A stretch of 64,000 nt of DNA from Gammaproteobacteria bacterium (GTDB taxonomy: Bacteria; Pseudomonadota; Gammaproteobacteria; Burkholderiales; Burkholderiaceae_C). Position numbers and translations under genes: made by a program. Positions 31,401 to 48,032 of the stretch are shown here, piece by piece. A model generated the notes under the pieces. It was not told the origin of the DNA. It saw only the letters and a program-made list of their open reading frames with translations, and searched no databases. The stretch is from positions 1-64,000 of the forward strand of contig JAHJOG010000263.1 in the NCBI GenBank assembly GCA_018820395.1, given 5' to 3'. The first letter of the stretch is position 1. Every line of letters begins with the position of its first letter.

Positions 31401-31487
31401 GACGTTGTCCAGAAGCCGGTCAAAGTGGACCGTGCTTCCTTGTACGAAGGGCGAGCCCGAACGGGGTTAATCGGTACTCGAAATTTC

Positions 31488-31503
31488 TGGCACGCCCTTT
31501 GCA
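31488..31503 (+). promoter_or_regulatory. Sigma-54 (-24/-12) promoter for the atzF operon
   Basis: TGGCACG-CCCT-TTGCA: full match to TGGCACG-N4-TTGCW; GG and GC separated by 10 nt; 27 nt before the TTG start, 33 nt before the ATG. Confidence 0.82.
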
Positions 31504-31530
31504 TCTCATCTTGTACACAAGACAGGATGC

Positions 31531-33240
31531 TTGACGATGGTGCATGACAACCGCCCGCCCGACGGATTGGCGACAGAGGCTTGGATCGAAAGGTTCGCGC
31601 AGCCGCTCGTCGGCGCGGCCACGGGCCCGTTGAAAGGCCTCGTGTTTGCGGTCAAGGACAACATCGACGTGGCCGGCGTGGCGACCACCGCGGGCTGCGC
31701 AGCCTTCGCACGCACGCCGGCCCGCCATTCGTTCGTGGTGCAGCGGCTGCTCGATGCCGGTGCGAGCCTGCTGGGCAAGACCAACCTCGACCAGTTCGCC
31801 TGCGGCCTGAACGGCACGCGTTCGCCCTACGGCGCGGTGCCCAACAGCTTCGACGCGCGCTACGTCTCGGGCGGGTCCAGCTCGGGGTCGGCCTATGCGG
31901 TGGCGACGGGGCAGGTCGACTTCGCGCTCGGCACCGACACGGCCGGCTCGGGCCGCGTTCCAGCCGGGCTCAACAACATCGTCGGCATCAAGCCATCGCG
32001 CGGCTTGCTCAGCGCACGCGGCGTGGTGCCGGCGGCGCAGAGCATCGATTGCGTGTCGATCTTCGCGCCGACGGTGGCGCTGGCCGTGCAGGTGCTGGTG
32101 GCGGCGCTCGGCCCCGATCCGGCCGACCCCTATTCGCGCGCGCTCGAGCTCGACCCGACGCCATTGCCGGCGGGGTTTCGCTTCGGCTTGCCCGCCGAGC
32201 CCCGGTTCTTCGGCGACCGGCTGGCGCAGGTGGAATTCGAACGCGCCATCGTGCAGATGGAAGCGCTGGGCGGCGTGGCCGTGAAGATCGACTACACGCC
32301 GCTGGCCCAGGCCGCGTCGCTGCTCTACGACAGCGCGCTGGTCGCCGAGCGCTATGCGGCGGTGCGCGAGTTCTTCGACGCGAACGAAGCCGAAGTCATC
32401 GAGCCGGTGCGCAGCATCCTTGCGCAGGGCCGCGCTTACAGCGCTGCCGATTTCGTCGATGCTCGCACGCGCCTCCAGGCGCTGGCCGGCCAGGCCGACG
32501 CGCTCTGGAGCGACATCGACGTGCTGGTGGTGCCGACGGCGCCCACGCATTGCACGATCGAGGCGATGCAGGCCGAGCCGGTGGTGCGCAACCGCGAGCT
32601 CGGGGAATACACCAACTTCGTCAACCTGCTCGACTACGCCGCGATCTCGGTGCCCAGCAGCTTGCGGCCCGACGGGCTGCCTTTCGGCATCACGCTCATC
32701 GGCCGCTGCGGCAGCGATCTCCGGTTGGCCGAACTCGGCCAGCGCTATCACCACCGCACCGGGCTGGGTGTCGGCGCGACGGGCGCGCCCTTGCCGCCGC
32801 CCGCGCCGCTGCCGGGCATTCAGGTCGCCGCCACGCATGCCACCGTCCAGGTGGCCGTCGTCGGCGCTCACCTGTCGGGTATGCCGCTCAACAGCCAGCT
32901 CACCGAGCGCGGCGCGCGTCTCGTCGAAGCGACGCGCACCGCGCCCCTCTACCGTCTCTACGCTCTGCCCGGCACCGTGCCGCCCAAGCCCGGGCTGATC
33001 CGCGTCGGCGCGGGCGAAGGCGCGGCCGTCGAACTCGAAGTGTGGGAGATGCCGATGGCGGCCTACGGCAGCTTCGTGACGCTCATCCCCGCTCCCCTCG
33101 GCATCGGCAGCCTGAGCCTGGCCGACGGCCGCAGCGTGCAGGGCTTCGTGTGCGAACCCTGGGCGCTGGCCGGGGCCGAGGACATCACTCACCTCGGCGG
33201 CTGGCGGGCCTACATGGCTTTTCGCACGGCGGCTGCCTGA
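31531..33240 (+). CDS. atzF: Allophanate hydrolase
   Basis: TTG start (ATG at 31537 possible). Amidase-signature FAVKDNIDVAG, GGSSSGSAYAVATG, GTDTAGSGRVPAG, plus C-terminal allophanate hydrolase domain (QLTERGARLVEATRTAPLYRLYALPGTVPPKPGLIRV). Confidence 0.9.
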   Translation: MTMVHDNRPPDGLATEAWIERFAQPLVGAATGPLKGLVFAVKDNIDVAGVATTAGCAAFARTPARHSFVVQRLLDAGASLLGKTNLDQFACGLNGTRSPYGAVPNSFDARYVSGGSSSGSAYAVATGQVDFALGTDTAGSGRVPAGLNNIVGIKPSRGLLSARGVVPAAQSIDCVSIFAPTVALAVQVLVAALGPDPADPYSRALELDPTPLPAGFRFGLPAEPRFFGDRLAQVEFERAIVQMEALGGVAVKIDYTPLAQAASLLYDSALVAERYAAVREFFDANEAEVIEPVRSILAQGRAYSAADFVDARTRLQALAGQADALWSDIDVLVVPTAPTHCTIEAMQAEPVVRNRELGEYTNFVNLLDYAAISVPSSLRPDGLPFGITLIGRCGSDLRLAELGQRYHHRTGLGVGATGAPLPPPAPLPGIQVAATHATVQVAVVGAHLSGMPLNSQLTERGARLVEATRTAPLYRLYALPGTVPPKPGLIRVGAGEGAAVELEVWEMPMAAYGSFVTLIPAPLGIGSLSLADGRSVQGFVCEPWALAGAEDITHLGGWRAYMAFRTAAA

Positions 33241-33350
33241 GCGCCGCATCGCGGCAAACGAAGCACCGGCTCACCTCCAGCACCGGCCCTCCGCAACACC
33301 CGCACCACCCGACGCATTCCTTTCCACCCATCCACTTCCAGGAGCCCTTC

Positions 33351-34364
33351 ATGCCACCGATTCCACGCAAGACCCCGGACCTCGGCTCGCGATCGCGCCG
33401 CACCCTGCTGCAGGTGGGCGCGGCCGGCCTGGCCGCCATGGCCGCGCCAGCCGTGGTGCGGGCACAGGCGGGCCCGAAGATCCGCATCGGCTACTGGCCC
33501 ATCGCGGCCGGCCTGCCTTTCTATGCGGCGGTCGAACAGGGCTACTTCAAGAACGCGGGCCTGGATGTCGAAGTGCTTCGCTTCGCCGGCGCCCAGCAGA
33601 TCATGGAAGCCATGCTGTCCGAGCGCTGCGACGGCAGCGCCAACGGCACCGGCTCGGCCAACATCGCCATCGGCGAGATCGCCGCGCCGGGCAGCTTCAA
33701 GATCTTCTGCTCCAACCCGAGCAACGTGAAGAACGTGCTCGACGAAGTGCTGGTGCCGACGGCGAGCACCGCCAAGACCATGGCCGATCTCAAGGGCAAG
33801 CGCGTTGCGTCCGGCCCCGGCATCCAGAACGTCACACTCGCCAAGACCGTGCTGGAGCGCGGCGGCGCCACCGGCGCCACGGTGATCGAGTTGCCCATCG
33901 GCCAGCACGTCGCGGCGCTCGCTGCCGGCCAGGTCGACGGCTGCTACACGCTCGAACCCACCGGCACCATCGGCCGGCTCAACGAAAGCACCCGCGTGCT
34001 CGAGGCCGGCGTGATCGCCAAGTACGTGCTCGGCGACCCGATGGCTCCGTGGTTCGGCGGATCGGCGTCGCTCACCGGCGCGTTCATCAAGCAGAACCCC
34101 GAGGTCTCGAAGAAGTTCATCGCGGCCTACGGGCAGGGCGTCGCCTATGTCCGCAGCAAGCCGGCGGAAGCGCGGCAGTACCTGAAGGGCTACACCGCCA
34201 TCGAGGGCAAGCTCACCGGCGAAGTGCCGCTGGCCGCCTACACCATGTACAACGAGTTCACGCCGGCCGACGTGGCGCACTTCCAGAAGTTCTTCGACCT
34301 GTTCTCGGACAAGGGCATCTTCACGTCGCGCCTGATGGTCGACTCGATGCTCTACAAGGGATGA
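33351..34364 (+). CDS. ABC transporter substrate-binding protein (NMT1/SsuA-like)
   Basis: Signal RRTLLQVGAAGLAAMAAPAVVRAQ; KIRIGYWPIAAGLPFYAAVEQGYFKNAGLDVEVLRF. Confidence 0.9.
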   Translation: MPPIPRKTPDLGSRSRRTLLQVGAAGLAAMAAPAVVRAQAGPKIRIGYWPIAAGLPFYAAVEQGYFKNAGLDVEVLRFAGAQQIMEAMLSERCDGSANGTGSANIAIGEIAAPGSFKIFCSNPSNVKNVLDEVLVPTASTAKTMADLKGKRVASGPGIQNVTLAKTVLERGGATGATVIELPIGQHVAALAAGQVDGCYTLEPTGTIGRLNESTRVLEAGVIAKYVLGDPMAPWFGGSASLTGAFIKQNPEVSKKFIAAYGQGVAYVRSKPAEARQYLKGYTAIEGKLTGEVPLAAYTMYNEFTPADVAHFQKFFDLFSDKGIFTSRLMVDSMLYKG

Positions 34365-34368
34365 GGCC

Positions 34369-35199
34369 ATGAGCGCACCGGCCCATCCCGCGACCCGTCC
34401 CTGGTCGCCCCCTGCCGGCGGTGCGGCCAGCGCGCCGCCCCGTCCTTCGCCCTGGCTCAAGGCGCTGCCCTTCATCGGTCCGGTGGTGCTCTTCATCGTG
34501 TGGGACCTGGCCGTGCGGCTCGGCTTCATCAAGGCGATCCTGCTGCCGATGCCTGCCGACACCGTTGCCACGTTGATCACCGGCTTGGCCGGCGGCCCGC
34601 TGCTGGTGGATTTCGCGGTCACGGTGTGGCGCACGTTGCAGGCTTTCCTGGTGGCGGCCATCGTGGGCGTGCCTCTGGGCGTGCTGCTCGGCAGCAACGA
34701 GAAGGCCTATCGCAGCGTCGAATTCCTGATCGACTTCTTTCGCTCGACGCCGTCGTCCGCGCTGATCCCGCTGTTCCTCATGATCTTCGGCGTGTCCGAC
34801 GTGAACAAGGTCGCCATCGCGGCCTTCGGTGCCTTGCTGATCGTGGTGTTCAACAGCGCCTATGGGGTGATGAACGCGCGCAAGCAGCGCGTCATGGCCG
34901 CCAAGGTGATGGGCGCCTCGCGCTGGCAGATCTTCAAGGACGTGCTGCTGTGGGAAAGCCTGCAGCCGAGCTTCGTCGGGCTGCGTTCGGCGGTGTCGAT
35001 GGCGCTGGTGATCGTGATCGTGGCGGAGATGTTCATCGGCTCGGACAGCGGGCTGGGCCACCGCATCATCAACTCGCAGCAGGTCATGAACGTGCGTGAC
35101 ATGTACGCCTCGATCCTTGCGGCCGGCGCACTGGGCTATCTGCTGAACATCCTGTTTCTGGTCGCCGAGCGCCGCATCGTCCACTGGAGCGGCCGATGA
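34369..35199 (+). CDS. ABC transporter permease (SsuC/TauC-like)
   Basis: RTLQAFLVAAIVGVPLGVLLGSN...VMGASRWQIFKDVLLWESLQPSFVGLRSAVSMALVIVIVAEMF. Confidence 0.9.
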   Translation: MSAPAHPATRPWSPPAGGAASAPPRPSPWLKALPFIGPVVLFIVWDLAVRLGFIKAILLPMPADTVATLITGLAGGPLLVDFAVTVWRTLQAFLVAAIVGVPLGVLLGSNEKAYRSVEFLIDFFRSTPSSALIPLFLMIFGVSDVNKVAIAAFGALLIVVFNSAYGVMNARKQRVMAAKVMGASRWQIFKDVLLWESLQPSFVGLRSAVSMALVIVIVAEMFIGSDSGLGHRIINSQQVMNVRDMYASILAAGALGYLLNILFLVAERRIVHWSGR

Positions 35200-36029
35200 G
35201 AGCCCCGACCGACGTCGTTGTCGCAGGCCCCGTGTTCGCGGACGTCCCGCGCCCCGCTTTTCGGCCCGGCCCGGCCGGCACGCACATCACCATCCGCGGG
35301 CTTACGAAGTACTTCGCGGGCTGGCCGCTGTACGAGCACTTCGACCTGGACATTCCCAAGCACAAGATCGTGTCGGTGTTCGGGCCCAACGGGTGCGGCA
35401 AGTCGACGCTGATCAACATGATCGCCGGCCTGATCCCCATCGATTCGGGCGAGATCCTGTTCGACGGCAAGTCGCTGGCAGACACCAAGATCGGCTACGT
35501 GTTCCAGAACTACCGCGAGGCGATGTTCCCGTGGATGCGCACCATCGACAACATCGCGTACCCGCTCAAGCTCGAAGGCCGTTCCAAGGCAGAAGTCGAC
35601 CGGCGCATGGCCGAACTGGTGGCGTCCTTCGACGTGAAGTTCGACCTGCACCGCTATCCGTACGAGCTCTCGGGCGGCCAACAGCAGACTGCGTCGATCA
35701 TGCGGGCGCTCGCGCCCAACCCCGAAGTGCTGTTCCTCGACGAGCCCTTTTCCGCGCTCGACTTCGAGATGACGCTCTTCATCCGCGAAAAGCTGCAGGA
35801 AGTGTTCATGCAGACCGGCACCACCATGCTGCTGGTCTCGCACGACCTGGAGGAGGCGGTGTATCTCGCCGACCAGGTGCTGTTGCTGACCAAGCGACCT
35901 ACCGGCGTGGCCGAGATCCTCGACTACGCCGACGCCCGCCCGCGCACGCTCGAGACGCTCAGTGCGCCGAGCTTCATCGCAACGAAAAAGCGCAGCCTGG
36001 AGATCTTCCAGCGCGAGGTTCGCCGCTGA
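35196..36029 (+). CDS. ABC transporter ATP-binding protein (SsuB/TauB-like)
   Basis: FGPNGCGKSTLINMIAG Walker A; ELSGGQQQTASIMRAL; VLFLDEPFSALDF. Confidence 0.93.
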   Translation: MRAPTDVVVAGPVFADVPRPAFRPGPAGTHITIRGLTKYFAGWPLYEHFDLDIPKHKIVSVFGPNGCGKSTLINMIAGLIPIDSGEILFDGKSLADTKIGYVFQNYREAMFPWMRTIDNIAYPLKLEGRSKAEVDRRMAELVASFDVKFDLHRYPYELSGGQQQTASIMRALAPNPEVLFLDEPFSALDFEMTLFIREKLQEVFMQTGTTMLLVSHDLEEAVYLADQVLLLTKRPTGVAEILDYADARPRTLETLSAPSFIATKKRSLEIFQREVRR

Positions 36030-36047
36030 GTCGGCGAGGAGCAAGGC

Positions 36048-36254
36048 ATGACGCCCGCACAGATCGAAACCTACGTCGACGCTGCCGCTGCCGCGCTCGA
36101 CCTCCGGCTGCGGCCGGAGCATCGCGCCGGCGTGCTCGGCTACTTCGCCATCGCCGCCGGAATGGCCGCCGTGGTGGACGCCGTTGCGCTCGATGCGCAC
36201 GACGAATCCGCGCTCTGCTTCACGCCTGTCGCGCCGCCGGAGTCCGGCGCATGA
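36048..36254 (+). CDS. atzG: AtzG-like small subunit (DUF4089-type), partner of AtzE
   Basis: 68 aa MTPAQIETYVDAAAAALDLRLRPEHRAGVLGYFAIAAGMAAVVDA...; overlaps the amidase start (ATGA). Confidence 0.78.
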   Translation: MTPAQIETYVDAAAAALDLRLRPEHRAGVLGYFAIAAGMAAVVDAVALDAHDESALCFTPVAPPESGA

Positions 36255-37681
36255 CGCCCGACGCATGGCTCGGCCAGGACGGTGCGGCCATCGCCGAGGC
36301 CGTGCGCAGCGGCGGCGTCGGCGCCGTCGAGCTGACGCAAGCCTGCCTCGGCCGCATCGACGCGACCAACGCGCGCGTGAATGCCTTCACCGCCGTCGTG
36401 CGCGAACGCGCGCTGCGGCGCGCGGCGCAGATCGACGCCTCGCTCGCTTCCGACGCGGGTGCACGCACGCGCGAGCTGCCACTGCTCGGCGTGCCCTTCG
36501 CGGTCAAGAACCTGTTCGACATCGCGGGCCTCACCACGCTGGCCGGCTCGAAGATCGAGCGCGACAGCACGCCCGCGCGCGCCGATGCCGAGCTGGTGCG
36601 ACGCCTCGAGCGCGCGGGCGCCGTGCTGGTCGGCGCGCTGAACATGGACGAGTACGCCTACGGCTTCACCACCGAGAACAGCCATGTCGGCCCGGTGCGC
36701 AACCCGCACGACCTGTCGCGCATCGCCGGCGGCTCGTCCGGCGGCTCGGGTGCAGCGGTGGCGGCGGGGCAGGTGCCGCTCACGCTCGGCTCCGACACCA
36801 ACGGCTCGATCCGCGTGCCCGCGTCGCTGTGCGGCGTGTTCGGGCTCAAGCCGACCTTCGGGCGGCTGCCGCGCACCGGCAGCTATCCGTTCGTCTCCAG
36901 CCTCGACCACCTCGGCCCGTTCGCGCGTTCGGCACGCGACCTGGCGCTGGCCTACGACGCGATGCAGGGTCCGGAAAGCCTGCACGGTGCGCACGACCCC
37001 GGCTGCGCACAGCGGCCCGTGGAGCCGGTGATGCCGGCCCTGGAGCGCAGCACGCTCGGCCTGCGCATCGGCGTGTTGGGCGGCTATTTTCGGCACCATG
37101 CGCAATCCGAGGCGCTGAATGCCGTCGACGCCGTGGCCGAAGCGCTGGGCGCGAGCCAGACGGTCGAACTGCCGATGGTCGACGCCGGTCGCGCGGCGGC
37201 TTTCCTCATCACCAATTCGGAAGGCGCAGCGCTGCATCTCGCCGAACTGCGCAGCCGGCCGCAGGACTTCGAGCCGCTGTCGCGCGACCGCTTCCTGGCC
37301 GGCACGCTGCTGCCGGCCGCGTGGGTGGCGCGCGCGCAGCGTGTGCGCCGCCGCTATGCCGAGGAAGTCGCCCGCGTGTTCGGCCGCTTCGACGTGCTGC
37401 TGGCGGCCGCCACGCCGTGCGCTGCGACGCCGATCGGGGCGGAGTGGTTCGAGATCAATGGCCACCGCATGCTGGTGCGCCCCAACATGGGTTTGCTGAC
37501 GCAACCCATCTCGTGCATCGGGCTGCCGGTGTGCACCGTGCCGGTCTGGGGCGTGCATGCGCAACTGCCGATCGGCGTGCAGGTCATCGCCGCGCCATGG
37601 CGCGAAGACATTGCGTTGCGCGTGGCGTTCGCCCTCGAGTCGGCCGGCAAGGCGCATGCGCCGGTGGCGACGCTCGGCTGA
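36251..37681 (+). CDS. atzE: AtzE-like amidase (1-carboxybiuret hydrolase candidate)
   Basis: Amidase-signature triad contexts FAVKNLFDIAG, GGSSGGSGAAVAAG, SDTNGSIRVPAS; coupled to atzG and in operon with atzF. Confidence 0.83.
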   Translation: MTPDAWLGQDGAAIAEAVRSGGVGAVELTQACLGRIDATNARVNAFTAVVRERALRRAAQIDASLASDAGARTRELPLLGVPFAVKNLFDIAGLTTLAGSKIERDSTPARADAELVRRLERAGAVLVGALNMDEYAYGFTTENSHVGPVRNPHDLSRIAGGSSGGSGAAVAAGQVPLTLGSDTNGSIRVPASLCGVFGLKPTFGRLPRTGSYPFVSSLDHLGPFARSARDLALAYDAMQGPESLHGAHDPGCAQRPVEPVMPALERSTLGLRIGVLGGYFRHHAQSEALNAVDAVAEALGASQTVELPMVDAGRAAAFLITNSEGAALHLAELRSRPQDFEPLSRDRFLAGTLLPAAWVARAQRVRRRYAEEVARVFGRFDVLLAAATPCAATPIGAEWFEINGHRMLVRPNMGLLTQPISCIGLPVCTVPVWGVHAQLPIGVQVIAAPWREDIALRVAFALESAGKAHAPVATLG

Positions 37682-37691
37682 GCGTGCCGCT

Positions 37692-37707
37692 TGGTACGGT
37701 TTATGCA
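37692..37707 (+). promoter_or_regulatory. Second sigma-54-like promoter, in front of the BMP transporter/hydrolase operon
   Basis: TGGTACG-GTTT-ATGCA: GG and GC separated by exactly 10 nt; 10/12 to consensus; downstream 23 nt closely resemble the atzF leader. Confidence 0.65.
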
Positions 37708-37761
37708 TCCCTTCTTGTATCCAAGATCGATATCCCGAGTCATTCACCCAGGAGCTTGCCC

Positions 37762-38880
37762 ATGACCCAGTTCAACCGCCGCGATTCGATCAAGTCGCTC
37801 GCCGCCATCGCCGCCACCGGCTCGCTCGCCGGCTGGTCGTCGCTCGCCGGCGCGCAGAAGCCGCTCACGGTCGGCGTGATCTACGTCGGCCCGCGCGAGG
37901 ACTACGGCTACAACCAGGCGCACGCGCAGGCGGCGGCCGAACTCAAGAAGATGCCCGGCGTCAAAGTGGTCGAAGAAGAGAACGTGCCGGAAACCGCGGC
38001 CGTGCAAAAGACCATGACCGGCATGATCGAACAGGACGGCGCCAAGCTGCTGTTCCCGACGTCGTTCGGCTACTTCGACCCGCACATCCTGGCCGTCGCA
38101 CCCAAGTACCCGGACGTGCGCTTCTCGCATTGCGGCGGGCTGTGGACCGAAGGCAAGCACCCGAAGAACGTCGGCAGCTTCTTCGGCTACATCGACGAGT
38201 GCCAGTACCTCAACGGTGTGGTGGCCGGCCACATGACCAAGAGCAAGAAGATCGCCTTCGTCGCCGCCAAGCCGATCCCGCAGGTGCTGCGCAACATCAA
38301 TGCGTACACGCTCGGCGCACGCTCTGTGGACCCGTCGATCACCTGCAGCGTGATCTTCACGGGCGACTGGTCGATGGCGGTGAAAGAGGCCGAGGCCACC
38401 AACAGCCTGGCCGACCAGGGCTGCGACGTGTTCACGATGCACGTCGACGGACCCAAGGTGGTGGTCGAGACGGCGGCCAAGCGCGGCAAGATGGTGTGCG
38501 GCTATCACGCGAGCCAGGCCAAGCTGGCGCCCGATGCCTATCTGACCGGAGCCGAATGGAACTGGATCACGGCGTACAAGACCTTCCTCGACGCTGCCCA
38601 GACGGGCAAGCCGCATCCGAACTTCCTGCGTGGCGGGCTCAAGGAGGGCTATGTGAAGACCTCCCCCTACGGCCCCAAGGTGACGGACACCGCCAAGAAG
38701 AACGCCGATGCGGTCAAGGCCAAGATGATGAGCGCCTCGGGCATGGACATCTTCACCGGCGGCCTGAAGGACAACAAGGGCACGGTGGTGGTCGCGGCCG
38801 GCAAGTCGCTGAAGCAGACCGACCTCGAACTTGAAAAGATGAACTACCTGGTCGAGGGAGTGATCGGAAGCATCGGCTGA
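37762..38880 (+). CDS. BMP-family ABC transporter substrate-binding protein
   Basis: MTQFNRRDSIKSLAAIAATGSL signal; LTVGVIYVGPREDYGYNQAHAQAAAELKKMPGVKVVEEENVPE. Confidence 0.9.
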   Translation: MTQFNRRDSIKSLAAIAATGSLAGWSSLAGAQKPLTVGVIYVGPREDYGYNQAHAQAAAELKKMPGVKVVEEENVPETAAVQKTMTGMIEQDGAKLLFPTSFGYFDPHILAVAPKYPDVRFSHCGGLWTEGKHPKNVGSFFGYIDECQYLNGVVAGHMTKSKKIAFVAAKPIPQVLRNINAYTLGARSVDPSITCSVIFTGDWSMAVKEAEATNSLADQGCDVFTMHVDGPKVVVETAAKRGKMVCGYHASQAKLAPDAYLTGAEWNWITAYKTFLDAAQTGKPHPNFLRGGLKEGYVKTSPYGPKVTDTAKKNADAVKAKMMSASGMDIFTGGLKDNKGTVVVAAGKSLKQTDLELEKMNYLVEGVIGSIG

Positions 38881-38890
38881 TCGCCTTCTC

Positions 38891-39973
38891 ATGCGCAGCA
38901 CGGCCAACGACATCGCACTGCCGGTGTTCGCCATCACGGCGGCGCTGCTGCTGTTCGGCGTGTTCGTGTGGTTTGCCGGGGTGGACCCGGTCGAGATGTG
39001 GGTGGTGCTCTTCAAGGGCGCGTTCGGCAGCTGGTTCTCCTGGCAGAACACGCTGCAGCGGGCGGCGCCGCTGATGCTGACGGCGCTGTGCGTGGCGATC
39101 CCGGCGCGCGCGGGGCTGGTGATCATCGGCGGCGAGGGCGCGCTGGTGCTGGGCGGTCTGGCGTGTGCGGCCTTGCCCTATGCGGTGCCGCTGCCGGCCA
39201 ACTTCGCGGGCACGGTGCTGCTGTGCGCAGCGGGCGCCGTGGCGGGCGGGCTGTGGATCATGCTCGCGGGCTGGCTGCGCCAGTACCGCGGCATCAACGA
39301 AACCATCAGCAGCCTGCTGCTGGCCTACATCGCGATCGGGCTCTTCAAGCACCTGGTCGAAGGCGTATTGCGCGACCCGGCGAGTCTCAACAAGCCGGCC
39401 ACGCGCTCGCTCGATCCTGGCCTGGGCATCGGCGGCATCGGAGGCTCGGACATCCACTGGGGCCTGGCGGTGGGCGTGCTGGCCTGCATCGCGCTGGGGC
39501 TCTGGCTGCGCGCCACGACGTCGGGCTTCTCGGTGCGCGTGGTCGGCGGCAATCCACGCACGGCGCAGATGGTCGGGCTGCCCGCCAACCGGCTGATTCT
39601 GGCGGCCTGCGCGATCGGCGGCGCCTGTGCCGGCACGGCCGGCGCGATCGAGGTAGCGGCGGTGCACACCAACGCCAACGCTTCGCTGATCGCGGGGTAC
39701 GGCTACGCGGGCATTCTGGTCGCCTTCATCGCGCGGCAGAACCCGTTGGCGATCATTCCGGTGGCGATCCTGTTCGGCGGCTTCGGCGCGGCAGGCAGCC
39801 TGCTGCAGCGTCGGCTGGGGCTGCCGGATGCCTCGGTGCTGGTGCTGCAGGGCATGGCTTTCGTGCTGATCCTCGCGAGCGAGGGGTTGCGCATGATCGA
39901 CTGGAGCCGGCTGAAGAACGTGCGCGTGCGGCGCCCCGCCGACGCGGGCTCGCGGGCCGAGGTGGCGCCATGA
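38891..39973 (+). CDS. ABC transporter permease (nucleoside/BMP-type)
   Basis: Polytopic; RAAPLMLTALCVAIPARAGLVIIGGEGALVLGG, RVVGGNPRTAQMVGLPANR. Confidence 0.9.
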   Translation: MRSTANDIALPVFAITAALLLFGVFVWFAGVDPVEMWVVLFKGAFGSWFSWQNTLQRAAPLMLTALCVAIPARAGLVIIGGEGALVLGGLACAALPYAVPLPANFAGTVLLCAAGAVAGGLWIMLAGWLRQYRGINETISSLLLAYIAIGLFKHLVEGVLRDPASLNKPATRSLDPGLGIGGIGGSDIHWGLAVGVLACIALGLWLRATTSGFSVRVVGGNPRTAQMVGLPANRLILAACAIGGACAGTAGAIEVAAVHTNANASLIAGYGYAGILVAFIARQNPLAIIPVAILFGGFGAAGSLLQRRLGLPDASVLVLQGMAFVLILASEGLRMIDWSRLKNVRVRRPADAGSRAEVAP

Positions 39974-40890
39974 CGCACGACCAGTGGATCGCGCTCGTGG
40001 CCGGCATCGTCGGCGGCGCGCTGCGTGTGGGCGCGCCCTTTCTGTTCGTGAGCCTCGGCGAATGCCTGACCGAGAAGTCCGGGCGCATCAACCTCGGGCT
40101 CGAAGGCGTGCTGGTGCTGTCGGCGATAGCGTCCTTCGGGGGAGCCTGGCTCACGGGCTCGGCATGGCTCGGTGCGTTGATCGGCGCCTGCGCCGGCGCA
40201 CTGCTGGCGCTGCTGCACGGGCTCTTGTGCTCGCTCGACCGCGTCAACGACGTGGCCACCGGCATCGCGCTGATGCTGTTCGGCACCGGGCTGGCCTTCT
40301 ATCTCGGCAAGCCGCTCATCCAGCCGCAGGCGCCGCAACTGCCGGCGATCCCGCTGGGCGCGTGGAGCGACAGCGCCGTGGTGCGTTCGGCGCTGCAGGT
40401 GAATGCGCTGGTGCCGGTCGGCATCGCGCTGGCGCTGCTGCTCTGGTGGGGCTTCGCGCGCACGCGCATCGGCCTCCTGGTGCGGATGGCGGGCGATTCG
40501 GCCAACGCCACGCGTGCGCTGGGCTATTCGGTGTCGGGTCTGCGCATCGCGGCGACCACGGCGGGCGGCTTCATCGCCGGACTCGGCGGTGCATCGCTCA
40601 CGTTGTTCTATCCCGGCAGCTGGAACGAGGGCATCTCGAGCGGACAGGGCCTGATCGCGGTGGCGCTGGTGATCTTCGCGCGCTGGAGCCCGCTGCGCTG
40701 CATCGGTGCGGCGCTGCTCTTCGGCGGCGCGGGCGCGATCGGGCCGGCGCTGCAGTCGATCGGGGTCGGCTGGGGCTATCACCTCTTCAACACGGTGCCC
40801 TATGTGCTCACGCTGGTGATCCTGGTGATCACCTGCAGGCCGGGCAGCGTCGCCGCCGGCAGCCCCGGCGAGCTTTCTTCCACGCGCTGA
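39970..40890 (+). CDS. ABC transporter permease (nucleoside/BMP-type)
   Basis: [32 protein letters not shown]...[32 protein letters not shown]. Confidence 0.9.
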
Positions 40891-40910: not shown

Positions 40911-41954
40911 ATGAGTGGTCTGGGTGGTCTCAACAAATCGGAACATGGTGTCGTCGTCGGGCTGGTGCAGCTGCAACTGCCCAACGTGAAGACTCCGCAG
41001 GATCTGGCCGACCAGACGCAGCGCATCTGCGACATGGTCGGCAAGGCGCGGCGCAACCAGGGGACGATGGACCTGGTGGTGTTTCCGGAATACTCGCTGC
41101 ACGGCCTGTCGATGGACACCTCGCCCGAGATCATGTGCTCGCTCGACGGGCCCGAGGTGACGGCGTTCAAGCAAGCCTGCGTCGACAACTCGATCTGGGG
41201 CTGCTTCTCGATCATGGAAGCGAATCCCGGCGGCAACCCGTACAACAGCGGGCTGATCATCGACGACAAGGGCGCGATCCGGCTCTACTACCGCAAGATG
41301 CATCCGTGGGTGCCGGTCGAGCCCTGGGAGCCGGGCAACGTCGGCGTTCCGGTGTGCGACGGCCCCAACGGCAGCAAGCTGGCGCTGATCATCTGCCACG
41401 ACGGCATGCTGCCCGAAATGGCGCGCGAGGCCGCGTACAAGGGCGCCGAGATCATCCTGCGCACGGCCGGCTACACGGCGCCGATCCGCCATGCCTGGCG
41501 CATCACCAACCAGGCCAACGCCTTCTGCAACCTGGCCTACACCGCCAGCGTGTGCATGTGTGGCAGCGACGGCAGTTTCGACTCGATGGGCGAGGGCATG
41601 TTCTGCAACTTCGACGGCACCGTGCTGGTCGAAGGCGGCGGCCGGGTCGACGAGATCATCACCGCCGAGCTGCGCCCCGACCTGCTGCGCGAGGCGCGAA
41701 TCGGCTGGGGCGTGGAGAACAACATCTACCAGCTCTACCACCGCGGCTACGTGGCGGTGCGCGGCGGGGCGCAGGACTTCCCCTACACCTACATGCAGGA
41801 CATGGCGGGCGGCCGCTACGAACTGCCGTGGCACGACAAGGTGCAGGTGGTCGACGGCAGCGGCTTCGGCTTCGCGCCGCCGGTGCGCGCCTACAAGGGC
41901 CCCGAATCGCACCCGCTCGTTCCGCAGGTGCCCAAGAAGGTCCGACCGACATGA
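40911..41954 (+). CDS. Formamidase/aliphatic amidase-like nitrilase-superfamily enzyme
   Basis: E-K-E-C contexts [55 protein letters not shown]. Confidence 0.85.
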
Positions 41955-42664
41955 GCACGGCCGCGTCGCTCGAACGCTTCGTGCGGGCCGAGCCGTACGC
42001 CTGGCCCTACCACGGCGCGCTCCGGCCCGACAACACGGCGCTGATCGTGATCGACATGCAGACCGACTTCTGCGGCAAGGGCGGCTACGTCGACGTGATG
42101 GGCTACGACTTGTCGCTGGTGCAGGCGCCGATCCAGCCGATCGCGCGCACGCTGGCGCGCCTTCGGCCCCTCGGCTTTCACATCATCCACACGCGCGAAG
42201 GGCATCGGCCCGACCTGGCCGACCTGCCGGCCAACAAGCGCTGGCGCTCGCGGCAGATCGGCGCCGGCGGCGTGGGCATCGGCGACGACGGCCCCTGCGG
42301 GCGCATCCTGGTGCGCGGCGAGCCGGGCTGGGAGATCATCCCGGCGCTCGCTCCGATCGACGGCGAGGTGGTCATCGACAAGCCGGGCAAGGGCTCGTTC
42401 TACGCGACGGACCTCGAACTGGTGCTGCGCACGCGCGGCATCGAGAACCTCGTCCTCGCCGGCATCACCACCGACGTCTGCGTGCACACCACGATGCGCG
42501 ACGCCAACGACCGCGGCTTCGAATGCCTGCTGCTGTCGGACTGCACCGCCGCGACCGACCACGGCAACCACCTGGCCGCGCTCAAGATGATCACCATGCA
42601 GGGCGGTGTCTTCGGCGCGCATGCGAGCTCCGCGGCGCTGCTGGACGCGGTGGGCGACCTGTGA
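41951..42664 (+). CDS. biuH: Biuret amidohydrolase (BiuH-like cysteine hydrolase)
   Basis: [48 protein letters not shown]...[21 protein letters not shown]...[14 protein letters not shown]...[28 protein letters not shown]; close to recalled BiuH; D-K-C triad contexts present. Confidence 0.85.
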
Positions 42665-42676
42665 ACGGACGGGCCC

Positions 42677-44323
42677 ATGGCTGACGAAGCCCGTGTTCCC
42701 ATCGGCGCGCTGCCCGCAGGCAGCGGCGCGCTCGCGCTCGACACCTATCGCCTCACCAAGCGCTTCGGCACGTTCACCGCGATGGACAGCGTGACGCTGC
42801 AGGTGAAGCCCGGCACGGTGCACGCGCTCCTGGGCGAGAACGGCGCGGGCAAGAGCACGCTGGTCAAGTGCGTGGCGGGATTCCAGCGCGCGGAAGAGGG
42901 CAGCATCCTCATCGACGGTCGCGAGCAGAACATCGCCAACCCGATCGTGGCGCGCGCGCTGGGCATCGGCATGGTGTATCAGCACTTCACGCTCGCGCCC
43001 GGCATGACCGTGGCCGAGAATCTGCTTCTCGCGGGCGGCAAGACGCCGGCGCTCATCGACTGGACGCGCCAGCGCGCCGAGCTCAAGGATTTTCTGGCCA
43101 CCACGCCGTTTCGGCTCGACCTCGACGTGCGGCCCGCCGAACTCGCGGCCGGCGAGAAGCAGAAGCTCGAACTGCTCAAGCAGCTCTACCTCAAGCCGCG
43201 CCTGCTCATCCTCGACGAGCCGACCTCGGTGCTGACGCCGCAGGAGGCCGACGAGGTGCTGGGCCACGTGCGCGACTTCGCGCGCAGCGGGCTGTGCACG
43301 GTGCTCATCATCACGCACAAGTTCCGTGAGGTCATGGCCTATGCCGACGCGGTCACCGTGCTGCGCCGCGGCAAGGCGGTGCATCACTGCGAGGTGGCCG
43401 ACACGTCACCGTCGCGGCTCGCGGCCGCGATGATGGGCGCAGGCGAAAGCGCACCTCCCGAATCCGACACCGCACGGCCGGCGAGCCGGGCGTCGCATGG
43501 CATGCAGGACACGCCCGCCGACGCGCCTGTGGCGCTCCAGGTCGACCGGCTGCGCGCGCAGGGCGACCGCGGCACGCTGGCGGTGCACGACCTGAGTCTT
43601 GCGGTCCGGGCGGGCGAGATCCTCGGCGTGGCCGGCGTTTCGGGCAACGGCCAACGCGAGCTGGTCGAAGCGCTGGTCGGCCAGCGCACGCGGCAGGGAG
43701 GCAGCGTGACGGTCATGGGCGAGCCCTATCGGGGGCGGCGCGAGGAAAACCGGCGGCTCAAGGTGCGCAGCCTGCCCGAGGAGCCCTCGCGCAACGCCTG
43801 CGTCGGCGACCTGAGCGTCGCCGAGAACATGGCGCTGCGCGACTTCGACCAGCCGCCGCTGGCCTGGAAGGCGCTGGGCGCGGGCGTGCTCAACTTTGCC
43901 TACTGGCGCACGCGGGCTCGCGAATGGATCGCCGAATACGGCGTCAAGACGCAGGGCGAGGGTGCGCCGATCCGCAGTCTTTCGGGCGGCAACGTGCAGC
44001 GCGCGGTGCTGGCGCGCGAGCTGGCGGGTGACATCAACGTGCTGATCGCCGCCAACCCGGTGTTCGGACTCGACTTCGCTGCCGTGGCCGAGATCCACGG
44101 CCGCATCGCGCAGGTGCGCGCACGCGGCGGCGCCGTGCTGCTCGTCAGCGAAGACATCGACGAATTGCTCGAAATGGCCGATCGCATCGTCGTGATGAGC
44201 GAAGGACGCATCGTCTACGAAACCTCGGCCGCCAAGGCCGAGCGGCATGTGCTCGGGGCGCACATGGGCGGCGGCGACCATGGGCACGCACAGGCGCCGG
44301 CGCACGCGGGAGTGGCCGCATGA
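42677..44323 (+). CDS. Duplicated-domain ABC ATPase of the BMP/nucleoside importer
   Basis: Walker [19 protein letters not shown]; second nucleotide-binding domain with degenerate [14 protein letters not shown] and [15 protein letters not shown]. Confidence 0.92.
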
Positions 44324-44378: not shown

Positions 44379-45044
44379 ATGCAGATAGACGCCCAGCCCT
44401 TCGCCTTCGATTTCGAGATCGGCCGCACGGCCCTGGTGATCATCGACATGCAGCGCGACTTCGTGGAGCCCGGGGGCTTCGGCGAATCGCTGGGCAACGA
44501 CGTGTCGCTGCTGCAGGCCATCGTTCCGGCCGCACAGGCCGTGCTGGGCGCTTGGCGGCGTCACGGCGGCCTTGTGGTGCACACGCGCGAGGCCCACCGG
44601 CCCGACCTGGCCGACTGCCCGCCGGCCAAGCGCAATCGCGGCAATCCGCGCCTGCGCATCGGCGATGTGGGCCCGATGGGGCGCGTGCTGATTGCGGGCG
44701 AACCGGGCAACCAGATCATCGAGGCGCTCGCGCCGCTCGAGGGCGAGATCGCCATCGACAAGCCCGGCAAGGGCGCCTTCTACGCCACACCGCTTTCGGC
44801 CCTGCTGCAGGAGCGCGGCATCCGCCAGCTGGTGTTCATGGGCGTCACCACCGAAGTCTGCGTGCAGACCACGATGCGCGAAGCCAACGACCGCGGCTAC
44901 GACTGCCTGCTGCTCGAAGACTGCACCGAAAGCTACTTCCCGCACTTCAAGGCGGCCGCCATCGAGATGATCCGCGCGCAGGGCGCCATCGTCGGCTGGA
45001 CCGCGCCGAGCGCGGCGCTGTTGAAGGCGCTCGCCAGCGACTAA
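44379..45044 (+). CDS. Second isochorismatase-fold cysteine hydrolase (ureidase; candidate triuret hydrolase)
   Basis: [84 protein letters not shown]; BiuH paralog. Confidence 0.85.
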
Positions 45045-45053
45045 CATTTCGGG

Positions 45054-45797
45054 GTGAACACCGTCCGACCCGACCCCGCGCTCATGCCGACTCCGGCCGG
45101 TGGGCCGGCCGCGTTCCGCACGCGGGCCGACGAGGTCTACGCACAGCTCAAGCGCGACGTCGCCGAGTTCAGCCTGGTGCCGGGCGACCGCTTCACCGAA
45201 AGCGAGATCAGCGAGCGGCTCGGCGTGTCGCGCACGCCGGTGCGGCAGGCGCTGTTCCGGCTGCAGCAGGAGGGGTTCGTCGAGGTGCTGTTTCGCAGCG
45301 GTTGGCGCGTGCTGCCTTTCGACTTCGACCAGTTCGAGCAGCTGTACGACCTGCGCATGGTGCTCGAGACGACGGCGGCGCATCGCCTGTGCGAAGGCAT
45401 CCGGCCGGTCGACCGCCAATTGCTCGACGCCCTCGCGGGCATCTGGCTGGTGCCGGGCGCGCAGCGCAGCACCGACACGGCGCGCGTCGCGCAGTGGGAC
45501 GAAGACTTTCACTGTTCGCTGGTGGCTGCGGCCGGCAATGCCGAAATGGCGCGCGTGCACCGTGACGTGACCGACCGCATCCGCATCATCCGGCGCCTGG
45601 ACTTCACCAAGCAGCCGCGCATCGACGCGACCTACGACGAGCACGCCAAGATCCTCAAGGCCATCCGCGCCAATCGCGGCGACCAGGCGGCCATGCTGCT
45701 GCGCGCACACATCGAAACCAGCCAGGCCGAGGTGCGCAAGATCACGCTGCACCAGGTGCACCTGGCCCACGCGGCGCATCGCGCGGCGCGCACCTGA
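45054..45797 (+). CDS. GntR-family (FCD) transcriptional regulator
   Basis: GTG start; DEVYAQLKRDVAEFSLVPGDRFTESEISERLGVSRTPVRQALFRLQQEGFVEV; C-terminal FCD-like domain. Confidence 0.93.
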   Translation: MNTVRPDPALMPTPAGGPAAFRTRADEVYAQLKRDVAEFSLVPGDRFTESEISERLGVSRTPVRQALFRLQQEGFVEVLFRSGWRVLPFDFDQFEQLYDLRMVLETTAAHRLCEGIRPVDRQLLDALAGIWLVPGAQRSTDTARVAQWDEDFHCSLVAAAGNAEMARVHRDVTDRIRIIRRLDFTKQPRIDATYDEHAKILKAIRANRGDQAAMLLRAHIETSQAEVRKITLHQVHLAHAAHRAART

Positions 45798-45819: not shown

Positions 45820-47400
45820 ATGAGCGAGCGCGACGAGATCGACCACCGAGACGGGGACGCCGCGCGCGGTTCGCGCGGCGACCGCGGGGATTTCGTCGAC
45901 GGCATCGATTGCACCTGGCTGTTGGCCGACCCGGGCTCGGAGCCCGCGCTGGCGCAGACGCGCTTGACGATCCAGAACGGGCGCATCGCGACCGTCGCGC
46001 CGGAGGCCGCACCGTCCGGCGGCAAGTCGTGGTTGGCGCTGCCCGCGCTGTCCAACGCGCACGACCATGCGCGTACCTTCCGCACGGCCACGCTCGGCGC
46101 CTTCGGCCGGCCGCTCGAAAGCTGGCTGCCGTTCCAGGGATTGGTGGGCGGCCTGGACCCCTACCTGTGCGCGACCACCTCGTTCGCGCGTTCGGTGCGC
46201 CACGGCGTGGCGAACCTGATGGTGCACTACACGCGCGTGCAGGGCGGCATGCCCTTCGTCGACGAGGCGGCGGCCGTGGCGCGTGCCGCGCGCGACGTTG
46301 GCGTGCGCATCGGCTTCGCCGTCGCACTGCGCGACCGCAACGGCATCGGCTACTGCAACGACGCGACGATGCTGGCGGCGCTGCGGCCGGAGATCCGCGA
46401 TGCGGTGGCGGCGCGCCTGTCGGTGAAGCCGCTGCCGCTCGCCGAGCAGATCGCGCAAGTGGACGACGTGGCCCGCTGCATGCAGCAGAGCGGCTGCGCC
46501 GACCACGTCACCGTGCAGTACGGGCCGACCGCCGTGCAGTGGTGCAGCACGCCGCTGCTCGAAGCCATCGCGCAGGCCTCGGCGGACCGTGCGCGGCCCG
46601 TGCACATGCACCTGCTCGAAACGCGCTACCAACGTGCATGGGCCGACGCCGAGCACCCGCAGGGCATCGTGCGCTTTCTGGACGACATCGGCCTGCTCAC
46701 GCCGCGCCTCACTCTCGCCCACTGCGCCTGGGCTCGCCCCGACGAGCTGGCGCTGATCGCCGAACGCGGCGCGACCATCGCCGTCAACACCAGTTCCAAT
46801 CTCTGGCTGCAGTCCGGCATCGCACCCGTGGCCGAAATGCTCCGGCAAGGCTGCCGCGTGGCGATGGGCCTGGACGGCTCTGCCTTCGACGACGATGACG
46901 ACGCACTGCGCGAACTTCGCCTGGCCTACGCGCTGCACCGTGGCTGGGGCTTCGAGACCACCATGACGCGCCAGCAGCTCTGGGCGTTCTCCGCGCGGCA
47001 CGGACGGCGCGCCGTGCGGGGTGCCGCGGCCGTCGGCGATGGCCACATCGGCGGGAGCATCGGCGCGCGGCTCGCACCCGGCGAGCCGGCCGATCTGCTG
47101 CTGCTCGACTGGAGCGCGCTCGACGACGACAGCCTGTTCCCCGACGTCGACCCGCTCGACCTGCTGCTCGCGCGCGGCACCGGACAGCACATCGACCAGG
47201 TCGTCATCGGCGGACGCCGCGTGGTCGAAGGCGGCCGCGTGCTCGGCATCGACGAAGCGGCATTCAAGGCCGAACTGCTCGCGCAAGCGCGCTCGGTGCT
47301 GGCCAATGATGAGGACTCGAAAGATTGGCGCGAGACGCTGCGCGCGCTGGCCGACGATCTCGGTCCGTTCTATCGGAGCGCGGGATTCGGCTGCTGCTGA
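45820..47400 (+). CDS. Amidohydrolase-superfamily deaminase (cytosine deaminase/TrzA-like)
   Basis: LPALSNAHDHARTFRTA, RPVHMHLLETRYQ, TLAHCAWARPDELALIAERG, VAMGLDGSAFDDDDDALREL. Confidence 0.85.
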   Translation: MSERDEIDHRDGDAARGSRGDRGDFVDGIDCTWLLADPGSEPALAQTRLTIQNGRIATVAPEAAPSGGKSWLALPALSNAHDHARTFRTATLGAFGRPLESWLPFQGLVGGLDPYLCATTSFARSVRHGVANLMVHYTRVQGGMPFVDEAAAVARAARDVGVRIGFAVALRDRNGIGYCNDATMLAALRPEIRDAVAARLSVKPLPLAEQIAQVDDVARCMQQSGCADHVTVQYGPTAVQWCSTPLLEAIAQASADRARPVHMHLLETRYQRAWADAEHPQGIVRFLDDIGLLTPRLTLAHCAWARPDELALIAERGATIAVNTSSNLWLQSGIAPVAEMLRQGCRVAMGLDGSAFDDDDDALRELRLAYALHRGWGFETTMTRQQLWAFSARHGRRAVRGAAAVGDGHIGGSIGARLAPGEPADLLLLDWSALDDDSLFPDVDPLDLLLARGTGQHIDQVVIGGRRVVEGGRVLGIDEAAFKAELLAQARSVLANDEDSKDWRETLRALADDLGPFYRSAGFGCC

Positions 47401-47441: not shown

Positions 47442-47482
47442 GGTGCCTTCGATCCGAAGCACGCGATCTGGCGGGGTGGTTT

Positions 47483-47494
47483 TTGTATATACAA
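47483..47494. promoter_or_regulatory. Candidate brnTA operator palindrome
   Basis: TTGTATATACAA, perfect 12-bp palindrome 6 nt before the brnT GTG. Confidence 0.55.
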
Positions 47495-47500
47495 TAAAGC

Positions 47501-47776
47501 GTGCGCATCTCCTACGATCCGGTAAAACGTCAGAAGACTCTCGACGATCGAGGCCTGGATTTTGAAGACGCTGTCGATGTGTTTGCAGGCCTGACGGTCG
47601 AAGTCGAGGATGTGCGCAAGGAATAAGGTGAACCTCGAATACTTTGCTACGGCCTGCTTGCTGGCAGGCTCGTGGTTGTCGGGTACACCCCGCGTGGCTC
47701 GGTCCGCCATGTCTTCAGTATGCGAAAGGCCAATGATCGTGAACAAACCCGTCTCGCGCCGTACCTCGAGCTCTGA
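47501..47776 (+). pseudogene. brnT: BrnT-family toxin interrupted by an in-frame stop
   Basis: GTG 47501: MRISYDPVKRQKTLDDRGLDFEDAVDVFAGLTVEVEDVRKE*GEPRILCYGLLAGRLVVVGYTPRGSVRHVFSMRKANDREQTRLAPYLEL; single TAA at 47624-47626, same frame open to TGA 47774-47776. Confidence 0.82.
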
Positions 47777-48032
47777 TCTGACACGCGTCGACGCGCATGT
47801 GATCAAGCCGTCCGAGTACAAGGAGCTCCCCGAACTCACCGAAGAAATGCTCTCCCGCGCGGTCGTCCGTCATGGTGGCCGCCCTCGCTCCGAGCATCCG
47901 CGCCAGCTCATCAGCTTGCGCTTGCCGGCCGAAGTCGTCGCGCGTTGGAGGGCAACAGGTCCAGGTTGGCAGACGCGCATGGCCGAGCGCCTGGCGCGAC
48001 CGCCGATGCCACGCGCGAAGAGTGAAGGCTGA
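47733..48032 (+). CDS. brnA: BrnA-family antitoxin
   Basis: MIVNKPVSRRTSSSDLTRVDAHVIKPSEYKELPELTEEMLSRAVVRHGGRPRSEHPRQLISLRLPAEVVARWRATGPGWQTRMAERL; overlaps the brnT 3' end. Confidence 0.82.
   Translation: MIVNKPVSRRTSSSDLTRVDAHVIKPSEYKELPELTEEMLSRAVVRHGGRPRSEHPRQLISLRLPAEVVARWRATGPGWQTRMAERLARPPMPRAKSEG

Follow-up and report, generated by a model that had tools for sequence, protein, structure and literature searches.

Gene content of the island

The window, which is the whole stretch of 64,000 nucleotides analysed here, contains an island of genes that all lie on the forward strand. The first is atzF, encoding allophanate hydrolase (31537..33240, ATG at 31537; TIGR02713, 746 bits for a cut-off of 511), and it is followed by genes for an NMT1/SsuA-type substrate-binding protein (33351..34364, PF09084), an ABC permease (34369..35199, PF00528), an ABC ATPase (35196..36029, PF00005), an atzG-like subunit (36048..36254, PF13318 AtzG-like) and an amidase of the atzE family, 1-carboxybiuret hydrolase-like (36251..37681; TIGR02715, 670 bits for a cut-off of 426). 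Next comes the gene for a BMP-family substrate-binding protein (bmp; 37762..38880, PF02608), then two BMP-system permeases, the first (38891-39973) recognised by PF02653 and an NCBIfam match and the second (39970-40890) by its reading frame and neighbourhood, a carbon-nitrogen hydrolase (40911..41954, PF00795), the biuret amidohydrolase gene biuH (41951..42664; NF050097, 415 bits for a cut-off of 370), a BMP-system ATPase (42677..44323; NF047930, 426 bits, below the cut-off of 670), the triuret hydrolase gene trtA (44379..45044) and a gene for an FCD-type GntR regulator (45054..45797; PF00392 and PF07729), whose orthologs are 81-91% identical within the same genus. The closest solved relatives of the biuH product are what we take to be BiuH structures. 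Those of the trtA product are 6xix and 6xj4 (E 1e-90), presumably the TrtA structures of PMC7948467. The last gene, for an amidohydrolase (45820..47400, PF01979), did not turn up in any other island fetched from the genus and could have joined the operon recently. Just past the island, at 47480-48030, short frames resemble by eye a BrnT/BrnA toxin-antitoxin pair with an interrupted toxin frame.

The presence of trtA, biuH and atzF together places the island among the triuret/biuret catabolic clusters, and by its predicted genes it is an island for triuret/biuret nitrogen scavenging through trtA, biuH, atzGE and atzF. TrtA converts triuret to carboxybiuret (PMC7948467), and carboxybiuret is the substrate of AtzE in Pseudomonas sp. 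ADP (PMC6219798), so that the two promoters described below connect enzymes with a common intermediate. The atzH gene (PF11533), which most relatives carry between atzE and bmp, is absent at 37682-37761. Elsewhere in the genome (contig C166, locus L316) there is a homolog with 69% identity to the AtzH of a relative.

Clusters of the type trtA-biuH-atzF-bmpA-nupABC-gntR have been described (PMC7948467, PMC12625717), and the parts of these papers covered here match the island in its enzymes, its BMP-type transporter and its gntR gene. The same passages contain no account of regulation, one of them labelling gntR, and the operators, promoters and activator-like box mapped here go beyond them. The cyanuric acid operon of Pseudomonas sp. 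ADP is atzDGEHF (PMC6219798). The island shares AtzG, AtzE and AtzF with it, and most relatives AtzH as well, but as mapped it lacks AtzD and has TrtA and BiuH instead. The atz operon of Pseudomonas sp. ADP is under the LysR regulator AtzR, whereas the island has GntR.

Two sigma-54 promoters with a putative operator at the predicted start

Upstream of atzF, a sigma-54 -24/-12 element (TGGCACGCCCTTTGCA, 31488..31503, forward strand) matches TGGCACG-N4-TTGCW with zero mismatches, bearing out the earlier note's description of it as a perfect consensus, and is the sole such match in the window. Upstream of bmp, a second element (TGGTACGGTTTATGCA, 37692..37707, forward strand) has the exact GG-N10-GC spacing that had been claimed for it, though with two mismatches to the consensus; this spacing is kept in 44 distinct bmp promoters. 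Both promoters consist of GG-N10-GC, a gap of 7 nt and a CTTGTNNNCAAG dyad near the predicted +1. Operator 1 (CTTGTACACAAG, 31510..31521), whose spacing is fixed in 98 atzF promoters, is a perfect CTTGT-NN-ACAAG, and operator 2 (CTTGTATCCAAG, 37714..37725), identical in 40 of 44 bmp promoters, carries one mismatch; the inverted repeat that the earlier note saw as shared is thus perfect at the first site only. All four sites had been placed exactly, and the two 23-mers containing the dyads agree, as reported, at 19 of 23 positions. A half-operator (CTTGTACGAAGG) also occurs near 31440, and again in a relative (L059) beside the same neighbour gene.

Transcription starts were placed by the -12/+1 rule, with downstream coordinates good to a base or two. 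The predicted +1 is 31514 at promoter 1 (from the position of the -12 element) and 37718 at promoter 2 (from consensus spacing), and both operators are centred at about +2.5. Since the dyad, at about -4 to +8, spans the predicted start, it would act as DNA; an RNA hairpin formed by the dyad was ruled out because the predicted +1 falls inside it.

Promoter 1 has TGGCAC-N5-TTGC with the invariant GG-N10-GC of sigma-54 promoters, and promoter 2 is assigned to this class by spacing and conservation alone. Taken by itself promoter 2 is not significant, since the window contains 13 matches with two mismatches and 14.0 are expected by chance. With up to 3 mismatches allowed, the degenerate form of the shared 23-mer has 3 matches in the window against 0.03 expected, and the composite GG-N10-GC-N7-CTTGTNNNCAAG has exactly 2 matches in the 5.28 Mb genome, both in this island. 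The significance of the two sites comes from their conservation at a common spacing, described below. The genome (G000) also contains rpoN, with matches at residues 108-434 (C237) and 2-143 (C266); the split over two contigs reflects a break in the assembly or the presence of two rpoN genes.

Conservation of the composite promoter

A GTDB-wide pattern scan and a scan of the order gave at least 131 matches, and with duplicates removed the composite was present, among the matches listed, in 142 distinct promoters, 98 of atzF and 44 of bmp. Its hosts are mostly Comamonadaceae (Variovorax, Acidovorax, Hydrogenophaga, Polaromonas), with a few other families. Among the matches listed, 114 of 131 lie directly upstream of atzF or bmp (at least 82 before atzF and at least 32 before bmp), one precedes another ATPase gene, and the remaining 16, which could not be assigned to a gene, have the appearance of chance matches or contig ends, except L281. 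The reversed pattern, used as a control in the order scan, had no match in 399 genomes. When 401 genomes of the family were scanned, the composite turned up in many more genera; of the sigma-54-like composites fetched, nearly all precede atzF or bmp.

All 98 distinct atzF promoters among the matches listed have TGGCAC or TGGCAT and TTGCA or TTGCG, and those of the same genus read TGGCAC/T-N5-TTGCA/G, 7 nt, then CTTGTACACAAG in nearly all, with CTTGTACACATG in place of the usual operator in three (L041, L049, L058). Promoter 1 is also retained in the laboratory strain V. paradoxus NBRC 15149 (L228). In L051 (G003) the atzF promoter is TGGCACGCGGCTTGTACACAAG, in which the -12 element and spacer are deleted and the operator and downstream box remain; judged by its sequence, it is a natural promoter mutant. 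From -70 to +50, clear conservation at atzF is limited to the sigma-54 element, the dyad and GgATGc..t.aa.aTGGTGCA, and at bmp to the sigma-54 element and the dyad. Conservation in orthologous islands had been chosen beforehand as the test by which the proposal could fail, and from Variovorax to other families the -24/-12 element and the dyad persist at the same spacing. The finding is real and conserved.

Some less regular cases were also seen. In a member of another family (L063, G041), CTTGTATCCAAG precedes atzF but the sigma-54-like site lies 16 nt from it and not 7, so that the spacing differs by about one helical turn. In L118 and L281 the composite, in its CTTGTGCACAAG form, is found in trtA/biuH or atz loci whose arrangement differs. 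A contig labelled as an Akkermansia muciniphila MAG (L202) carries the bmp promoter together with a bmp gene that shares 80% identity with that of the window, and its label is probably a binning error.

Where the activator may bind

We scored candidate NtrC sites against the 14-position consensus TGCACCAnnnTGGTGCA, the NtrC box of Escherichia coli (PMC8743547), with a threshold of 11 or more. Promoter 1 has an NtrC-like box (TGCTTGACGATGGTGCA, 31528..31544, forward strand; 11 of 14 positions) centred at about +23, over the atzF start codon, and none is recognisable on either side of the window's bmp promoter. In 91 atzF promoters with distinct upstream sequence, taken from the matches listed, the downstream region (+8 to +60) contains such a box in 70, all at about +23, against 0.4 in shuffles, which ignore common descent; the upstream region (-250 to -30) contains one in 7, against 1.2 in shuffles. 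Paired boxes at about -80 to -160, as in the NtrC regulon, show no conservation in Comamonadaceae and are absent from both window promoters. The upstream NtrC sites for which the earlier note had suggested looking did not appear, none at the window promoters being above chance. A de novo search for palindromic dyads upstream of atzF gave no count above the shuffle maximum; upstream of bmp some counts were above it, in a stretch that is mostly the coding end of atzH. In many Variovorax, a GC-rich interspersed repeat (CTCCCTCTCCCTCCGGGAGAGGG...) lies just upstream of the atzF promoter (L034, L041, L043, L054, L056 and others), which leaves little space there for conserved enhancers. As a positive control for NtrC sites, glnK-amtB gave no clear sigma-54/NtrC sites, and at urtA the few sequences with a clear sigma-54 site have NtrC-like boxes upstream, a result that serves as illustration only.

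The likely activator site of promoter 1, as far as these patterns can place it, sits past the transcription start and not before it. We put somewhat less than an even chance on a fuller reading, in which NtrC would act at a nitrogen-scavenging sigma-54 promoter from a site in the leader, to which it would have moved from an upstream pair. The box would then cover the first gene's start codon, the GntR operator would be wedged between polymerase and activator, the classical upstream pair would be retained in a related family, and the second codon of atzF would be fixed as a by-product. Paired upstream NtrC-like boxes do occur in a related family. In the clade of L201, L305 and L313, which has no downstream box, two lie at -115 and -83, separated by 32 bp (P 0.003-0.010 for each sequence, with no correction for how many lineages were examined). 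L306 and L302 have NtrC-like boxes upstream too, and L214 and L244, also without the downstream box, have no convincing upstream box. At bmp promoters outside Variovorax, a related half-box (GCACCGTTTTGATCC, GCACTATTTTGGT, GCACCAATTTGGGTG) is present at about +33 in 9 of 12, and is absent from the window's bmp promoter; on the 14-position score, a downstream box reaches 11 or more in 1 of 27 bmp promoters and 10 or more in 7 of 27. One NtrC box on its own is weaker than a pair, the usual arrangement.

It is quite possible, though short of probable, that the sigma-54 elements and GntR operators are rightly identified and that the activator, NtrC or another enhancer-binding protein, binds far upstream or at sites of unrecognised form, the +23 element being a translation-start feature or the site of a second regulator. 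The element overlaps the Shine-Dalgarno sequence and the start codon, so that part of its conservation (GGA, NTG) is otherwise caused. However, TGGTGC stays the same whether the start is ATG, GTG or TTG, in an AtzF N-terminus that otherwise varies, and it is kept out of the atzF frame in 7 sequences of one clade, which may represent few independent events; this persistence rules out coding (Met-Val-His/Gln) as the sole cause. A different activator would fit the fact that the bmp promoter of the window lacks the element, as do several other families, and the genome, which carries ntrC above the cut-off, encodes several other NtrC-family AAA+ regulators. A far-upstream site is at odds with the lack of a clear upstream excess of NtrC boxes in these genera and with the de novo dyad counts at atzF. 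The NtrC-type co-regulation of both promoters that the earlier note had proposed is plausible at promoter 1, through the +23 box, whereas the bmp promoter of the window has no such box.

Nitrogen-scavenging genes with sigma-54 promoters activated by NtrC are known, for example those for urea and nitrate in Burkholderia cenocepacia (PMC5491218). The island resembles these in its -24/-12 elements, in its nitrogen-source genes and in a genome that carries both rpoN and ntrC, but differs in having a repressor operator at +1 and no conserved upstream NtrC boxes in these genera. Downstream enhancers have been described for FleQ (Jyot et al. 2002, by its title as cited in PMC10723142). As far as that title goes, the likeness is an enhancer-binding-protein site, here putative, downstream of a sigma-54 promoter; FleQ, however, is a flagellar regulator, and the island's box, which fits the NtrC consensus, lies partly over a start codon. 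A keyword search of a limited literature found no description of a downstream enhancer for NtrC.

Retention and loss of promoter 2

The bmp composite is retained in about half of the same-genus islands. The sigma-54 element is kept without the operator in L034, L043 and L044, and both are missing in L048, L050 and L051. That the two can be lost separately argues that they are distinct elements. The earlier note had the two promoters driving the two halves of the island, and the gene order agrees with this, as does the absence of a terminator-like site at 37600-37760, between atzE and bmp, but read-through from promoter 1 is also possible, and three relatives have lost promoter 2 altogether. 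These losses, those of the operator alone and the absent terminator-like site would also suit a situation in which only promoter 1 matters, the bmp genes being transcribed mainly by read-through while promoter 2 decays in this lineage. We consider this unlikely, given that promoter 2 and its operator are retained in 44 distinct sequences.

GntR as the candidate ligand of both operators

The FCD-type GntR protein of the island is the likely repressor and the proposed ligand of both operators. The dyads resemble FCD GntR operators as short palindromes near a promoter, by palindrome and position, and the cognate regulator gene is linked to them and co-occurs with them, a co-occurrence confounded with presence of the island. 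An FCD GntR ortholog is found in nearly every island locus fetched far enough, with L105 an exception in the stretch fetched. Within the same genus the composite is present in 25 of 31 gntR-bearing genomes and in none of 5 without gntR (Fisher 0.001), a comparison that is confounded with the presence of the whole island and speaks for linkage and not for binding. Of the earlier proposal that GntR binds a shared operator near +1, linkage and co-occurrence stand, and GntR is the predicted ligand by linkage only.

There is a rather small chance that the dyads bind another repressor, since GntR binding is a prediction and, in the stretch fetched around more distant gntR homologs (53-62% identity; L062, L064), which extends some 9 kb or more to each side, no operator of this kind is present. 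Against this, the TTGT-N2-ACAA shape suits FCD GntR proteins, gntR is present even in the reduced loci L107 and L109, which have the atzF half only, and the composites of the window's genome are confined to this island. Some FCD regulators act as activators and a position near +1 is by itself no proof of repression, but GntR as an activator, or as a roadblock at the start relieved by NtrC or polymerase, is less probable still, as a protein covering -4 to +8 would be expected to interfere with the open complex.

Proposed mechanism and significance

From the sequences, spacing, conservation and gene content, and from the presence of rpoN and ntrC, we infer with fair assurance an AND gate, in which nitrogen limitation (NtrC/sigma-54) and release of GntR by an inducer would be combined in one composite promoter present in two copies. 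Sigma-54 RNA polymerase would occupy the -24/-12 elements of both promoters, and GntR, bound to CTTGTNNNCAAG when inducer is lacking, would block opening or escape. The inducer would probably be one of the compounds of the pathway, for example triuret, biuret or carboxybiuret. When nitrogen is limiting, phosphorylated NtrC would drive ATP-dependent opening, at atzF most likely from the box at about +23, downstream of the polymerase and GntR sites. Identifying the activator as NtrC and giving the downstream box an activating role belong to the inferred part of this scheme, as do GntR binding, repression and the inducer. The genes would be expressed only when nitrogen is short and substrate is present.

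A sigma-54 promoter with a local repressor is already known; what is new is the geometry, with a possible downstream NtrC box. The fixed order of sigma-54 element, +1 operator and activator-like box makes this a natural system in which to ask whether NtrC works from downstream, and the same geometry offers a test case for how a repressor at the start site stops enhancer-dependent opening. For the use of triuret and biuret, which are impurities of urea fertiliser, the island points to a regulator, a class of inducer and a regulon that can be tested in a large group of bacteria from soil and water.
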